Part shown: piece after piece, positions 20,302 to 26,990 of the stretch | Layout of the letters: each line of letters starts with the position of its first letter | Position numbering within the stretch: position 1 is the stretch's first letter | Assembly: GCA_002720115.1 (NCBI GenBank) | Contig: PBGS01000017.1 | Location: forward strand, 28,276-60,285 | DNA length: 32,010 nt | Direction of reading: 5' to 3' | Origin: Methanobacteriota archaeon | GTDB taxonomy: Archaea > Thermoplasmatota > Poseidoniia > Poseidoniales > Poseidoniaceae | The notes under the pieces: model-generated | Databases searched by the model: none | Seen by the model: only the letters and a program-made list of their open reading frames with translations | Told to the model about the DNA's origin: nothing | Translations under genes and position numbers: made by a program

Positions 20302-22071
20302 ATGCGCATTGCAGTTCTGATTGAAGAGAAATGCAAGCCAAAGAGTGATGCCTATGATTATCTAAAAAAATGGGCAGGCTCCTGTGGAGCGGAATGTATT
20401 CAGATGAATGGTGATAAATTCAAAATTCTTGAGACAGCGTGTCCTCCTTGTTTTGTTAGGGCGAAGCATTGTCCTGACGGGGCGGTAGTGGTAGTGAATC
20501 TTCCCGCTGAACTAAAGACGGATATGATTCATAGGTATTCCTTGAATGGTTTTAGGCTCTTCAGACTCCCAACACCATCTAAGGAGTCAGTGGTTGGAAT
20601 ATTAGGTCCGAACGGAATGGGTAAATCTACTGCGTTTAATATTCTCAATGGCTCAATAATTCCAAACCTTGGAGATTTTGAAGCCGATGAACTATGGTGG
20701 GATGATGTAATACAAAGCCTTCCTCGAGGAGAACTTAGAGATTTTTTGGTTGATGTCAGTGAATCTAATGTTTCTGTAGCACTAAAGCCTCAGTACGTCG
20801 ATCATATCCCTAAAGCAGTAAAAGGAATGGTAGGTCAGTTACTCTCTTCAGTAGATGAGAGAGGAATCTACGAAGAGATGGTTTCAAAACTCGGAATCGA
20901 CCATTTACTCGAAAGGAATCTAGACCAATTATCTGGTGGAGAACTCCAAAGAGTAGCAATCTGTGCTACCTTGTTGAAGAAAGCTGATGTATACTTCTTT
21001 GATGAACCATCATCATATTTGGACATCCACGAAAGAATGAGAATTGTAAACATAATTCAAGAATTATCACAAACGGCTAGAGTTATTGTCATCGAACACG
21101 ATTTAGCAGTTTTAGACGTCCTTGCAGATCTTGTGCATATAGTGTATGGCAAAAAGGGTGCATTCGGAATTTTTACGCCTGCGCGTTCAACCAGACAGGC
21201 CATAAATGCATATTTAGACGGGTTCCTTGCTGAGCAGAATGTTAGAATTAGAGATAAACCAATAAAGTTTCAAACTCATAATGACAGATCAAATGAATTA
21301 GGAAACCCGGTAGTTGAATGGGGTGGCCTAGAAAAGAAACTCGGAAATTTCAATCTAAAAACCGGTGACGGAAAGGTTCACCAGTCAGAGGTTGTGGGTG
21401 TTGTCGGACCAAACGGTACAGGTAAATCTACGATGATAAAAATACTAGCAGGCGAGCATGAGTACGATGGTGGCTGGGTTACAGCAGATGCATCAATTTC
21501 ATACAAGCCACAACATATCGATACCGACATGGATTGCGATGTACAAACCTGGCTCAATGCTGAGGTTGGACCAAAATGGCGAAGCGGAGAGTACAGTGTA
21601 AATGTAATCAAGGCATTGGGTGTTGACGAGATGCTCACAAAGCAGGTTTGTAATTTATCAGGCGGAGAGGCTCAAGCGGTGGCAATATCAATTTGCTTAG
21701 GTAGAGAGGCCGACTTATACCTCTTGGATGAACCCAGCGCACATTTAGATGCTAATGCTAGGATGCAAGCTGCCAAAGCAATAAGAAGAACGATGGAGGC
21801 AAATGAAAAAGCAGCATTTGTAATAGACCACGACGTGTATTTCATCGATATCGTCTCAGATTCACTATTGGTCTTCGAGGGTTCAGGAGGAAAACACGGT
21901 ATGGCAGAAGGTACTTTCAGATTAAGAGAAGGAATGAATCGTTTCCTAGGGGGAGTCGATGTTACATTTAGACGTGACCACGATTCAAAGCGTCCAAGAA
22001 TCAACAAGATCTCAAGCAGGAAAGACCGGGAACAACGCGCTAAAGGTGATTTTTACTCATTTGATTCATGA
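20302..22071 (+). CDS. rli1: Ribosome recycling ATPase Rli1/ABCE1
   Basis: This protein splits ribosomal subunits after termination. The 589-residue chain has an N-terminal Fe-S region and two ABC ATPase domains. NBD1 has Walker A GPNGMGKST, signature LSGGELQRVAI and Walker B VYFFDEPSSYLD. NBD2 has GPNGTGKST, LSGGEAQAVAI and LYLLDEPSAHLD. The Fe-S region is unusual. The family normally has eight conserved cysteines for two 4Fe-4S clusters, but here only six are present (Cys11, 28, 32, 47, 50, 57). The CxxCxxCxxxCP motif reads CPPCFVRAKHCP, so its third cysteine is arginine, and the second cysteine of the first motif is also missing (CKPKSD). The start ATG 20302 is supported by the standard MRIAVLIEEKC opening. 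A weak TATA-like element sits about 30 bases upstream. Confidence 0.95.
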   Translation: MRIAVLIEEKCKPKSDAYDYLKKWAGSCGAECIQMNGDKFKILETACPPCFVRAKHCPDGAVVVVNLPAELKTDMIHRYSLNGFRLFRLPTPSKESVVGILGPNGMGKSTAFNILNGSIIPNLGDFEADELWWDDVIQSLPRGELRDFLVDVSESNVSVALKPQYVDHIPKAVKGMVGQLLSSVDERGIYEEMVSKLGIDHLLERNLDQLSGGELQRVAICATLLKKADVYFFDEPSSYLDIHERMRIVNIIQELSQTARVIVIEHDLAVLDVLADLVHIVYGKKGAFGIFTPARSTRQAINAYLDGFLAEQNVRIRDKPIKFQTHNDRSNELGNPVVEWGGLEKKLGNFNLKTGDGKVHQSEVVGVVGPNGTGKSTMIKILAGEHEYDGGWVTADASISYKPQHIDTDMDCDVQTWLNAEVGPKWRSGEYSVNVIKALGVDEMLTKQVCNLSGGEAQAVAISICLGREADLYLLDEPSAHLDANARMQAAKAIRRTMEANEKAAFVIDHDVYFIDIVSDSLLVFEGSGGKHGMAEGTFRLREGMNRFLGGVDVTFRRDHDSKRPRINKISSRKDREQRAKGDFYSFDS

Positions 22072-22082
22072 GAGGTTTGTAA

Positions 22083-23687
22083 ATGCCCGCACAATTACCT
22101 CCTGAAGCACTATCGATAGGACGGGCAAGGAGTAGACTTTCTGCGTCTTCTCTAACTACTTTCCAAAGATGTCCCAAGCAGTGGTTTCTGAATTACAGAA
22201 TCGGCTTGAAAGGTCCACTAAACCCTCACCAAGTTATGGGTATAGTTGTTGAAGATGCATTATGTTCAATTTTAATGCACAGGCCCCCTGTTGTTGATTC
22301 TATAGAGGAACTTAGAAAATGGTCAGACACACTTGTTGAAAAATATGCATCCAATGCTCTAGATACAGGTAAATCGAGATTTGAAGATGCTATGTGGTCA
22401 GTTGGGAACTTCGATGAACACTTCAACGTTGAATACGTCTCATCAATGCTCAAAAATGGTGTAACTTTGCAATTGGAGGAGGTCGAAAAGTGTTACAAAG
22501 CAGGAGGTGGTCTTCACGATTTCGATATACCAGCTCCGTGTTGGGAAACACCTCCTCATTTCACTCAACCAGAAAAAGCGAACAGCATGGTTGTATGGAA
22601 TAACTCACCTCACATTTTCAGTGATGATATTACTTGGCAGGATGCTTGGGAAATCGCTAGGCCATGGGTAAAAGATCCTCGAAATCCTGAACCTCAAAGG
22701 ATGTATCATCTGGATAAGTGGGCAGCAGGAGAGTGTGATTTAGTACACAGGTGGGATGGAAAAACCAGAATTATTGATATCAAGATGGGAGACGGAGGTG
22801 GAAAATTTGCCTCATCTTTGCCGGGACAATTGAATTTCTACGCTTGGCTTTGGAACGAGACTCACGATGAAGAGTGCGATGGAATTGAAGGGTGGTACCT
22901 TACAAATGGATTAAGGAAGGTAGTTGAACTAAATCCACTTTCTACTAGTGATTATAGAAAAATATACAAAAAAATGAAATCATGGTCAGTTGATAATAAA
23001 TTTCCTCTCGAGACGAAATGCGATGGAAATTCGGGTGGTTGCTATTGGTGCTCAATGTCTGAAATTCAATATGACCCTCCTACCATCAAGATGCCTTGTG
23101 AGCCTTTATCTTCAATACCCTCAAGAGTAAATGTCAAGGGTAGGTTACAGGGTGCTTGGGGTCCTCTTCCCAATCACTATGGTGAACCTGTGTTAGGAGC
23201 GATGATTAAATCTGGTGACAAGATGGTAACCATCGAGGAAAGCCAACCCAATGCATACCCCTCAATGCATGATGCTCCTCAAGATGATGTAGTAATTACC
23301 GGTGCATTACCTGGTGTGTGGAGGGGCCAATCAAGACTATATCTTGATGAATTATCTTCGATCGAAACTGATTCAAACTTGGAACTAACCAGAATGGGTA
23401 TGTTACGTACAAAAGCAAATGTTCACGGCGTTGTTTTATCGTGTTCTAAGCGCGATGGAAAAAGGTCAGATGGTCGCCCGTGGTCGATGTTATCATTCCA
23501 TATTTGGGATGGTGAGAGAGTTGCAGAGGTAGTCGCATTCGGGTCAGCAATAAATGCTACTATGTTATCACTCAGACCAGGGTATGAAGTGGTAATCACA
23601 TCTGCAGAGTTAGGTTGGAGAGAAGGACTGGTACAGTTACGTATTGATTCCCGGTCTACCAGAATGGAAATTAAATCGAAGGTTTGA
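22083..23687 (+). CDS. RecB/AddB-type PD-(D/E)XK nuclease with four-cysteine Fe-S motif and C-terminal OB-like region
   Basis: This is a predicted DNA nuclease. The N-terminus has the RecB-family opening RLSASSLTTFQRCPKQWFLN (Cys30), then a helix with Glu57 where the family has His or Glu. The catalytic core follows: GECDLV (Asp219), IIDIK (Asp232, Lys234) and QLNFYAW (Gln249, Tyr253), a complete PD-(D/E)XK set. Three more cysteines come after it (Cys313, 320, 323), which with Cys30 would bind a 4Fe-4S cluster as in AddB and Cas4. Residues about 345-530 are beta-rich and resemble OB folds (RVNVKGRLQG; ANVHGVVLSC; GRPWSMLSFHIWDGERVAEV). This could bind single-stranded DNA. The start has GAGGT at 22072-22076, 11 bases after the Rli1 stop. 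It is a clear paralogue of the next gene. No helicase domain is present, and I do not recognise the exact family. Confidence 0.75.
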   Translation: MPAQLPPEALSIGRARSRLSASSLTTFQRCPKQWFLNYRIGLKGPLNPHQVMGIVVEDALCSILMHRPPVVDSIEELRKWSDTLVEKYASNALDTGKSRFEDAMWSVGNFDEHFNVEYVSSMLKNGVTLQLEEVEKCYKAGGGLHDFDIPAPCWETPPHFTQPEKANSMVVWNNSPHIFSDDITWQDAWEIARPWVKDPRNPEPQRMYHLDKWAAGECDLVHRWDGKTRIIDIKMGDGGGKFASSLPGQLNFYAWLWNETHDEECDGIEGWYLTNGLRKVVELNPLSTSDYRKIYKKMKSWSVDNKFPLETKCDGNSGGCYWCSMSEIQYDPPTIKMPCEPLSSIPSRVNVKGRLQGAWGPLPNHYGEPVLGAMIKSGDKMVTIEESQPNAYPSMHDAPQDDVVITGALPGVWRGQSRLYLDELSSIETDSNLELTRMGMLRTKANVHGVVLSCSKRDGKRSDGRPWSMLSFHIWDGERVAEVVAFGSAINATMLSLRPGYEVVITSAELGWREGLVQLRIDSRSTRMEIKSKV

Positions 23688-23713
23688 ATAAACTCCAACC
23701 TAGGTTCTAGTTC

Positions 23714-25480
23714 ATGCCGGTTCGAAGTGCTAACCCCGAAACGGATGATGTGGGGCGCTTCAACAGATTATCAGCCTCCCAAGCTAATACCTGGGATGAT
23801 TGCCCTAGGTTGTGGTATTATCAAAACAAAATGCGGTTAAAGTTTCCACAAACGCCTCCTTTGTTTTTAGGTAGGGCTGTTGAAGAGTGCGTTTGTAGAG
23901 TCTTGTTAGAATCACCGGGTTTGGTATTTCCAAATGCTCCATTGGACGTCATGTCAAATGGAGCAGACAAATTATTACCATTGTTCGACGATGAGTTGCC
24001 TTCTGATTTTAGAGAATGGTGTCGGGCAAGAGTCGATGTTCACTGGCCAAAAATAAGAGATGAAATGCACTTAGAGTGGAAGAAAAATCCTAGAAAAGCT
24101 GGAAATTGGAACGAGTATTCAATGCAAACATACAGGGATATGTGCGTTACAGCCCTTGAAATGCACATGATTGAGGTCGATCAGTGCCGTAATACCATTT
24201 CTAAGGAGGAATTGGAATGCTGGCGAAATGGTATGAGGCATGAAATTCCAGCTCCGGATGGAAGGGAAAACTCTGGCCCCCACCCTTTGCGAGGTAAAGG
24301 TTCGTGCAGCCTTGTCGAAGCATGGGAAATTGCTAGGCCTTGGTTTGTAGATCCAGATGCCCCACAATTTTCTCTAAATGCTGTCCATCCTGATCACTGG
24401 TTTCAAGGAGAGTATGACATTGTTTACCGTCATGGTGGTAAGGTTAGGATTATGGATCTTAAAGCAAGCAGAGGTGGAGGTGATAGAAGTGGGAATTATG
24501 TTGAACAATTACGGATTTATGCTATGCTTTGGTCGATTACTCATGATGGAAGAATCCCAGATAATCTTGAAGTTTGGTATCTTGGAGTTGGTGTGAGGAA
24601 GGAAGTGAGTGTTCCGAGTCAAGAGGAAATTACAAATTTAGAAAGAAAACTGAAGGATTTATGGCACGAGATAAAAGAAAATAATGTAGATATTAGTGAC
24701 TGTCCCCCAATACCTAGAGCGCTTAGAGGTTATGCTGAAGGCGGATTGGAAATAGAAAACCCCGAAGAAGTTCGTTGCACAAATTGTGATTGGGAAGCCT
24801 TGTGTCCAAGCGGAAGTGGAGATGATGACCTGCCAAAGGGAGGAACGCATCAGCCACCGGGTGATTTGAAAGAATACGATCTAACAGCATTCGAAGATTT
24901 AGTCCCGAGAGTCAACATATTTGCGGAAGTGTTCAGCGTGACTAATGTCCCTACAAAGCCGCCAAATATAACAATAGAAAAGGATGGAGGATTTGCTTTC
25001 GTGCGAATAATTGCAGAAGAAAGTGAAGGGATACTTACTTATCCGGAGGGGCTTGAAAAAGGAGAGACTGTAAGGCTTATCGGCGTTATCCCCTCCACAA
25101 ACTGGAAAGGTGAATTACAGCTAAAGGTTGATCCTCATGCAAAAGTCGAAAGGGCGGACACCAGCCTTGAAGGAGACATCGGGTTGTACGATTTTAGAGC
25201 AAGGTGGAACCTCGTGGGTAGGGTGGCATATACAACATACAAATCAGGTGTAGGCAGGAACGGAAAACCTTGGACTCGAAAAGGTCTAATTCTTATCGAC
25301 GAGACGAGCAGGATTACTGTAGAAGGGTGGGAAAATTCCTGGCCAAGTATCTACAATACTTTGAAACAGGGCGATGAAGTTGTGATACTCAATGTTTCCC
25401 TTGATGCTTGGGCAGTAGAAGTAAAAGCAAATTTAGAGAAAGGAAGCAGCATGTATGTTGTTTCTAGGTCTTGTGAGTAA
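23714..25480 (+). CDS. Second RecB/AddB-type nuclease with Fe-S cysteines and OB-like C-terminus (paralogue)
   Basis: This 588-residue protein shares its plan with the preceding gene: RLSASQANTWDDCPRLWYYQ with Cys30 at the identical position, Glu57, and a shared WEIARPW-x-x-DP motif (about 204-213). The nuclease core is GEYDIV (Asp235), IMDLK (Asp248, Lys250) and QLRIYAMLW (Gln265, Tyr269). The Fe-S cysteines are Cys355, 358 and 364 in the CxxCx5C spacing known from AddB (RCTNCDWEALCP). The C-terminal region (about 385-585) has beta-rich OB-like features, with a second shared phrase NGKPWTRKGLILID matching DGRPWSMLSFHIWD of the first protein. Both active sites look intact, so this is a duplicated pair that has diverged, probably working together or on different substrates. 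The gap between them is 26 bases. The start ATG at 23714 has only a weak ribosome site. Confidence 0.75.
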   Translation: MPVRSANPETDDVGRFNRLSASQANTWDDCPRLWYYQNKMRLKFPQTPPLFLGRAVEECVCRVLLESPGLVFPNAPLDVMSNGADKLLPLFDDELPSDFREWCRARVDVHWPKIRDEMHLEWKKNPRKAGNWNEYSMQTYRDMCVTALEMHMIEVDQCRNTISKEELECWRNGMRHEIPAPDGRENSGPHPLRGKGSCSLVEAWEIARPWFVDPDAPQFSLNAVHPDHWFQGEYDIVYRHGGKVRIMDLKASRGGGDRSGNYVEQLRIYAMLWSITHDGRIPDNLEVWYLGVGVRKEVSVPSQEEITNLERKLKDLWHEIKENNVDISDCPPIPRALRGYAEGGLEIENPEEVRCTNCDWEALCPSGSGDDDLPKGGTHQPPGDLKEYDLTAFEDLVPRVNIFAEVFSVTNVPTKPPNITIEKDGGFAFVRIIAEESEGILTYPEGLEKGETVRLIGVIPSTNWKGELQLKVDPHAKVERADTSLEGDIGLYDFRARWNLVGRVAYTTYKSGVGRNGKPWTRKGLILIDETSRITVEGWENSWPSIYNTLKQGDEVVILNVSLDAWAVEVKANLEKGSSMYVVSRSCE

Positions 25481-25493
25481 ATCCTGAGTTTTG

Positions 25494-25503
25494 TTTATTT
25501 ATT
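25494..25503 (+). promoter_or_regulatory. Candidate TATA box for the small membrane protein
   Basis: TTTATTTATT is centred about 25 bases before the ATG at 25523, the spacing for a leaderless archaeal transcript. It suggests the membrane protein has its own promoter and need not be co-transcribed with the nucleases. Confidence 0.5.
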
Positions 25504-25522
25504 AGTGTTATAATGTAATATC

Positions 25523-25921
25523 ATGGAATCAGGCAAAGTACTGACGAACGCTGAAGAAGGGCTACTAGAAACAGATTCTACTAAGGATTCCTCGGAAGCA
25601 ATGAAGGATGGTGTAGCTAGGAATACTCTGCGAAAGAGGCAAATAAAATTCCTCTCAATTCTCTTAATTGCGTTAATTTCAATATCTATCTCTTGCAATA
25701 TAATTGGGACAAATAAACTCCCTTCAAGTGAGCAACAATTCATTTGTGTTGGATTGGGATACGACTACTATCCACCGGGAGATTGGGATTGTGAACAGAT
25801 AAGAGATGATTATGTTCAATCACGTAATCTGATGAGAATCAGTTTCATTTCAGGATTGGGCGCTGGATTGGCAGCAATTATATTGATTGTCAAGTTTGTA
25901 TCAAACCCAAAAGGTGAATAA
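25523..25921 (+). CDS. Small two-span membrane protein of unknown function
   Basis: I do not recognise this 132-residue protein. A charged, acidic N-terminus (1-40) ends in a basic stretch (RNTLRKRQ), followed by a span at about 42-62 (FLSILLIALISISIS). A loop of about 40 residues carries two cysteines (Cys75 and Cys90), a tyrosine-rich YDYYPPGDWDC phrase and acidic residues. A second span lies at about 104-126. The basic residues before the first span put the N-terminus inside, the loop outside and the C-terminus inside; the two loop cysteines could form a disulfide. It sits between the two large nucleases and the third, shorter nuclease-like gene, but has its own TATA-like box, so a link to them is uncertain. 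Confidence 0.6.
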   Translation: MESGKVLTNAEEGLLETDSTKDSSEAMKDGVARNTLRKRQIKFLSILLIALISISISCNIIGTNKLPSSEQQFICVGLGYDYYPPGDWDCEQIRDDYVQSRNLMRISFISGLGAGLAAIILIVKFVSNPKGE

Positions 25922-26006
25922 ATTTCAGAAATTGGTAAACTGCAAAGTAAGTATGTAGGGTAATTGTACGAAGGATTCACAATCTTTGAAGTGATTACAC
26001 CGGTAT

Positions 26007-26990
26007 ATGGAGACAAGAAAAGTAGCATTAGCCAACCGACCAAATACCTGGTCGATTAGTAGACGTAGTCTAATGAATCAATGCCCAAGAGCATGGATTC
26101 TAAAGTATGGATTCGCAAAAAGACAAGGCGGATTTAATCAACACCTTCGGAATATTTCAGACTGGTCATCGGCATGGAGACTGATGCAAAGAGCTTTGCG
26201 TGGGGTGATTATTGACAGGTTAACTGCGCATCATAGGGGTAATCGTTGGAAAGAAGAAGATTTGGCAGGAAAAATTAGGAACAGAATTATTGGTGCACTG
26301 TTTAGACAAAAGTCGGTCCTTGAGATCATAGAGACCAGAACTGGTAAAGCCAGTGAATTGAGGTCGCAAACTAGTACAAGAAGAGTAGATAGACTAGTCG
26401 AAATCGCTTGTTATAGATTCCATGCAGCGCTTCAATCTCATCCAATAAAAGATATTTTAGACGGACGAATAACGAGGTGGTATCTCTTTTCCAGACTAGA
26501 AAAAACCAAACTTCAAAATTATGATTTGCACATATCTCCTGATTTGGTTTGGTTTAGTGGTTTTACTTGTCATGTACTTAGATTTGCAGTTCAGGATGTT
26601 GCAAGATTGGGAGAGGATAAACGTCTTGAGAATTTTGCAATGGTCGAATGGGCTAGGAACCAGATCGGACTCCCAGCAAACCCTGAGAGATATATGGTTG
26701 AAAACCTATATTGGAATGGTGGGAAATGGAAAATTTGGAAAGAAAAATGTACGCATAGACACGTTGAAGACGCAATAAAAATGATTTATTCGGATATGAA
26801 AGCAATGCGAGAATTGCATTACAAACTAGGTCTGTCTTGTGACCTGTCGCAAATACCCCTGGCAAAAAATAAACTAACTTGCAGAAGTTGTGGGCATAGA
26901 GATACATGTCCCGGTGGTGAGAATCTTTATCTTGCAAAATTAGAGCAATCTGCTCTTGAGATGTCGAAGGCCTCAGGGAAATTTCGTTGA
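26007..26990 (+). CDS. Third RecB/Cas4-like Fe-S protein with a degenerate nuclease site
   Basis: This 327-residue protein has the same frame features as the two nucleases upstream, in a shorter form. It opens SISRRSLMNQCPRAWILKY with Cys26 in place of Cys30, and ends with CRSCGHRDTCPGG, giving Cys292, 295 and 301 in the CxxCx5C spacing. The middle has SPDLVWF (Asp179) where the first catalytic aspartate is expected. However, the following strand reads LRFAVQ, so the D/E-x-K catalytic pair is missing. There is no OB-like C-terminal region. It is therefore a likely inactive, structural or DNA-binding relative, comparable in principle to inactivated nuclease subunits in RecBCD/AddAB-type complexes. 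The upstream spacer (85 bases) shows no clear promoter or ribosome site. The start at ATG 26007 is the first in frame and gives a sensible opening. Confidence 0.65.
   Translation: METRKVALANRPNTWSISRRSLMNQCPRAWILKYGFAKRQGGFNQHLRNISDWSSAWRLMQRALRGVIIDRLTAHHRGNRWKEEDLAGKIRNRIIGALFRQKSVLEIIETRTGKASELRSQTSTRRVDRLVEIACYRFHAALQSHPIKDILDGRITRWYLFSRLEKTKLQNYDLHISPDLVWFSGFTCHVLRFAVQDVARLGEDKRLENFAMVEWARNQIGLPANPERYMVENLYWNGGKWKIWKEKCTHRHVEDAIKMIYSDMKAMRELHYKLGLSCDLSQIPLAKNKLTCRSCGHRDTCPGGENLYLAKLEQSALEMSKASGKFR

Follow-up and report, generated by a model that had tools for sequence, protein, structure and literature searches.

In the window, by which we mean the whole 32,010-nucleotide stretch of DNA analysed here, two adjacent genes, A and B, encode paralogous proteins that we read, with moderate confidence, as order-specific core nucleases of Poseidoniales. 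They are of the RecB/Cas4/AddB type, with an Fe–S staple and RPA-type OB folds, and likely act on ssDNA ends or flaps, in replication or repair; a third gene nearby, C, would be independent of them. The parts of A and B are known and the architecture appears to be new: a Cas4/RecB nuclease joined to tandem RPA-type OB folds, duplicated, and specific to one order within its phylum. A search of the open-access literature, which is weak evidence on this point, turned up no account of either these proteins or a loss of Mre11 in Poseidoniales.

A and B carry complete nuclease domains

The window lies on an 80-kb contig of a 2.03-Mb genome that is 81% complete. Three open reading frames on its forward strand, A (22083–23687, 534 aa), B (23714–25480, 588 aa) and C (26007–26990, 327 aa), each open with an S-x-S...C(P)x-W motif, the N-terminal cysteine opening that the original prediction had described in three same-strand genes. 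Against the Pfam PDDEXK_1 model (PF12705; gathering cut-off, 22 bits), A scores 46.6 bits (5.5e-12) and B 50.4 bits (3.8e-13), with the match of B spanning the whole model; C falls below the cut-off at 13.6 bits.

Alignments of 29 diverse A homologues and 27 B homologues support the prediction of complete nuclease motifs in both proteins. The catalytic block of A (E217-x-D219, D232-x-K234 and Q249...Y253; 22731–22841, forward strand) is invariant. The nuclease domain of B (aa 18–365; 23765–24808, forward strand), supported by PF12705, the B alignment and matches to viral RecB/Cas4-type models, contains C30, D235, D248-x-K250, Q265, Y269 and C355-x2-C358-x5-C364. D235, D248-x-K250 and Q265 are invariant, and Y269 is kept in at least 90% of the homologues. 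A and B are probably active DNA-cutting enzymes.

All three proteins have one N-terminal and three C-terminal cysteines in the pattern of an Fe–S staple. The predicted arrangement is canonical in B and C and has one position shifted in A. The candidate N-terminal ligand of A, Cys30 (22170–22172, forward strand), is invariant in the A alignment. Its C-terminal cysteines, C313-x6-C320-x2-C323 (23019–23051, forward strand), depart from the usual CxxC(x5)C spacing; C313 is present in all aligned homologues of the window's family, while CxxC(x5)C occurs in A only in the second family of the order (four homologues). This difference in spacing indicates that one ligand position moved within the A family. 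From their cysteines, B and A are predicted to bind an Fe–S cluster, probably 4Fe–4S, less certainly so for A because its ligands have moved. In AddB and Dna2, a loop across the active site, supported by the staple, lets single strands thread through (PMC4716839); Cas4 proteins, which have this module too, are DNA exonucleases (PMC3466216, PMC5704561).

Structural matches agree with the RecB/AddB/Cas4-type identity proposed originally, which the PDDEXK_1 hits support for A and B and the Cas4 fold for C. The nuclease part of B matches RecB/Cas4-type nucleases only in a library of viral predicted structures. Searching solved structures with individual A or B sequences yielded no useful match, and the A and B profiles retrieved from solved structures only RPA and a weak Cas4 match.

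Tandem OB folds and the common origin of A and B

B as modelled by AlphaFold2 (pLDDT 88, pTM 0.84) has a helical/beta nuclease region followed by two C-terminal beta domains, at about aa 396–485 and 495–584 (24899–25465, forward strand). These domains match RPA (Foldseek E = 3e-9) and other tandem OB proteins, and OB folds dominate the matches of the whole model; at the profile level, B matches Pyrococcus abyssi Rpa at 7e-4. The tail of A, a tandem OB fold at about aa 345–527 (23115–23663, forward strand), has a profile match to archaeal replication factor A (E = 0.024) and is covered by the full-length profile alignment with B. With both profiles matching Rpa1, the OB-like tails that had been suspected from the sequence are confirmed, as is the proposed paralogy: A and B are homologous from end to end (BLASTP 2e-35, 24%; profile–profile probability 100).

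In a phylogenetic tree, A and B form separate, fully supported groups, and both families of the order are found inside each; one long-branched B sequence of the second family has a weakly supported placement. Since each group is monophyletic with the family-level splits inside it, the duplication is older than the divergence of the two families.

Relation to known nucleases

A and B resemble Cas4 and solo-Cas4 (PF01930, TIGR00372) in the PD-(D/E)XK core, with its D, D-x-K and Q-x3-Y motifs, and in the four Fe–S cysteines split between the termini; archaeal solo-Cas4 is also vertically inherited (PMC5704561). However, at 14.7 bits (A) and 20.9 bits (B) they fall short of the TIGR00372 equivalog cut-off of 65. 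Unlike Cas4, they have Rli1, PAC2, aIF2a and L44e as neighbours and no cas genes nearby, and they contain large insertions and two OB folds, the latter not described in a survey of Cas4 (PMC5704561).

The nuclease domain of Dna2 and bacterial Bad likewise combine an Fe–S RecB-type nuclease with an OB element and RPA-related handling of ssDNA (PMC4716839, PMC7430649). By contrast, A and B have no fused SF1 helicase and no match to PF08696, and their OB folds are tandem and C-terminal. With the AddB, AdnAB and RecBCD modules they share an AddB-type Fe–S nuclease and two nuclease-bearing partners side by side, but they lack a helicase or inactivated-helicase domain; a UvrD-type protein is encoded elsewhere in the genome, and, as originally stated, no helicase gene is adjacent. 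The OB folds of archaeal RPA (Rpa1), to which the tails correspond, are in A and B fused to a nuclease.

A and B are an ancient trait of one order

We surveyed 293 genomes drawn evenly from the phylum, comprising 82 Poseidoniales and 211 others, six of the latter from the same class. A B profile that also catches A matched 79 of the 82 Poseidoniales genomes and none of the 211 others. All named homologous loci belong to Poseidoniales or marine Euryarchaeota records, and no relatives of A or B were found in the viral contigs, phages and plasmids searched. In Poseidoniales, A–B is an ancient trait passed on by vertical descent.

The position of the pair is fixed, with Rli1 before it and a PAC2/aIF2a/L44e block after it; L10e lies upstream of the locus and L44e/aIF2a downstream. 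In the window, the upstream neighbour is an ABCE1/Rli1-like two-domain ABC protein (20302–22071, forward strand; ABC_tran 6e-38), and A starts 11 bases past its stop codon. The corresponding gap in 26 relatives is 9–66 bp, and that between A and B is 26–61 bp. The Rli1-like gene and A are probably co-transcribed.

The tandem arrangement with its short gap, the intact nuclease sites of both proteins and their joint descent would fit an obligate A–B heterodimer that resembles AddAB in its two nuclease subunits. Gene content makes this rather unlikely, although it fares best among the alternatives. Only B is present in 12 of the 16 second-family genomes sampled, and in the two of these B-only genomes that were examined a radical SAM-type gene stands upstream of B in place of Rli1–A. 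Conversely, two close relatives from the window's genus have A followed by unrelated genes at an intact locus, and B was not found elsewhere in these genomes, which are about 80% complete. Each gene has thus been lost without the other, which argues against an obligate complex; a facultative one is possible. Neither Rli1 nor A lies directly upstream of B in the B-only genomes.

Other DNA-end machinery in Poseidoniales

Neither Mre11 nor NurA was detected in the Poseidoniales sample. In these mostly draft genomes, Mre11 (SbcD model) was found in 0 of 82 Poseidoniales versus 199 of 211 others, and NurA, with a profile model that is not very sensitive, in 0 of 82 versus 65 of 211. A single-contig Poseidoniales genome (96% complete) also had neither. 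This result raises the question of how Poseidoniales, among the most abundant archaea of the surface ocean (PMC6461757), process DNA ends. In a DUF87 (HerA) survey, the matches in the window's family are HerA/VirB4-like ATPases of ~700–800 aa, and we do not claim that HerA is absent; a survey of the Rad50 zinc hook is not interpreted, as its control missed known Rad50 carriers.

Of 41 relatives, 37 have UvrD_C, for the most part in frames of ~1600 aa beside PDDEXK_1 (AddB-like) frames of ~1200 aa. One such pair scores 1.7e-40 for AddA and 2e-5 for AddB-like, and the best solved-structure matches of the large subunit are AddA and AdnB. Given this pair, resection is more plausibly the work of an AddAB-like machine than of A–B, and we regard that machine as the better resection candidate. 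The core A/B nucleases and the AddAB-like machine together provide concrete, testable proteins for DNA-end processing in the order.

A combined scheme, in which A and B are Dna2-like ssDNA nucleases carrying RPA modules and, jointly with the AddAB-like machine, took over resection and flap trimming after the loss of Mre11 and NurA, is conceivable but doubtful. We give slightly less weight to a replacement of Mre11–Rad50/HerA–NurA end resection by A–B. The distributions are complementary, with A/B in 79 of 82 genomes of the order, where neither Mre11 nor NurA was detected, and in 0 of the 211 others, yet this pattern amounts to one phylogenetic event and establishes no causal link. A–B are without a motor, and the AddAB-like pair is the obvious resection enzyme in the order; its discovery weakened the simple replacement scheme.

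A and B belong to a rich repertoire of RecB-type nucleases in the order. An AddAB-like gene pair is located on contig 42 of one genome (G000). Two further single-domain PDDEXK_1 families of ~400 aa are common (examples of 446 and 418 aa), one of them near Cas4 at 58.7 bits against the cut-off of 65. On contig 51 of G000, a 1200-aa protein with a UvrD helicase and a full PDDEXK_1 domain adjoins a 719-aa HerA/CedD/VirB4-like ATPase; the two may form a distinct locus for defence or DNA transfer.

Proposed action of A and B

If A and B are core ssDNA nucleases, as we favour, their OB pair would capture ssDNA or compete with RPA for it. The strand would then thread into the Fe–S-stapled nuclease domain, where the D/D/K metal site would cut, trimming 3′ or 5′ tails or flaps in replication or repair. 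As no motor is fused to either protein, a helicase encoded elsewhere, such as the AddAB-like one, could supply the ssDNA. Alternatively, the partner of the OB folds may be a protein and not DNA; in Dna2, the OB domain on its own binds Rpa but does not bind DNA (PMC4716839).

The genomic setting could point to an RNA substrate or merely reflect inherited gene order. A role in RNA metabolism would fit the close coupling of A to Rli1/ABCE1 across the first family and the ribosomal genes on either side of the locus. We consider it improbable, more so than the resection schemes: characterised RecB/Cas4-type nucleases are DNA enzymes, the OB folds match RPA best, and B-only genomes retain B without an adjoining Rli1. 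The original prediction had raised the prospect of a defence system, and a nuclease with nucleic-acid-binding tails, with weak PADLOC matches to DruK and Cas4 (1e-4 to 6e-7), would suit an enzyme directed against viruses or plasmids. Near-universal presence in one order, a vertical tree, fixed housekeeping neighbours and the lack of copies in the phages, plasmids and viral contigs searched make such a function very unlikely.

Gene C is probably independent of A and B

C, probably independent of A and B, is a catalytically degenerate protein of the Cas4 fold. By BLASTP, it shares with A and B just the N-terminal motif, and its profile alignment with B is marginal, so that the predicted relatedness of all three proteins holds over the full length for A and B and, for C, would be one of modelled fold. 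The AlphaFold2 model of C (pLDDT 73) retrieved ACE1 and AdnAB, Cas4 and RecE nucleases in Foldseek (4e-4 to 1e-2), the best solved-structure match being the Argonaute-associated, Cas4-like ACE1 (9iac; 4e-4). Unlike ACE1, C is without D-x-K, and an Argonaute gene was seen neither in the window nor in the compared neighbourhoods.

An alignment of 39 C rows, which include duplicates of one genome, agrees with the predicted loss of D-x-K and retention of four cysteines. D-x-K is found in none of the rows and its lysine is replaced throughout, while the P-D and four-cysteine patterns are largely kept. Most rows have R-[FLIM]-x-x-[QE] in the strand at the D-x-K position, and some have D-x-Q. Because the rewritten motif is conserved, C is probably functional, in a non-nuclease role.

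The home locus of C contains tpi (triosephosphate isomerase), a nucleotidyltransferase and sucC. In the order, 108 of 244 genomes have a match to the C profile, and similarity falls off beyond the genus. In relatives, C lies about 17–32 kb from A–B on the opposite strand, or on another contig. Three other genomes, one of them a single contig of 2.06 Mb, share the gene order Rli1-A-(B)-PAC2-aIF2a...sucC-tpi-C; there, C is encoded on the other strand, at a distance of about 30 kb. Relative to them, the ~25-kb block that runs from C to PAC2 in the window's genome is flipped but keeps its internal order, and this is the only genome among those compared in which C stands beside B. The three-gene cluster of the original prediction is therefore a local accident.

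From marker order and strand in the three genomes, we place the inversion breakpoint between the A–B block and the C–tpi–sucC block at 25922–26006. It would lie downstream of the gene for a small predicted membrane protein (25523–25921, forward strand), because homologues of that gene follow B in two relatives. An assembly error at the joint between C and A–B is possible and would leave the conclusion on the three genes unchanged.

The heteromeric DNA-end complex without a helicase that had been proposed for A, B and C, with its appeal to three adjacent same-strand genes and to the dead site of C, a feature of some nuclease complexes, is the least credible reading and was rejected on synteny and the inversion: C sits in a conserved neighbourhood of its own, none of the other genomes compared shows the inversion, C is patchy where A/B are near-universal, and A and B each occur alone. 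Gene C is a warning against inferring a complex from adjacency in one genome.

The interval just 3′ of B (25480–26007) is a variable slot, occupied by different genes in different species at the same place in relatives.
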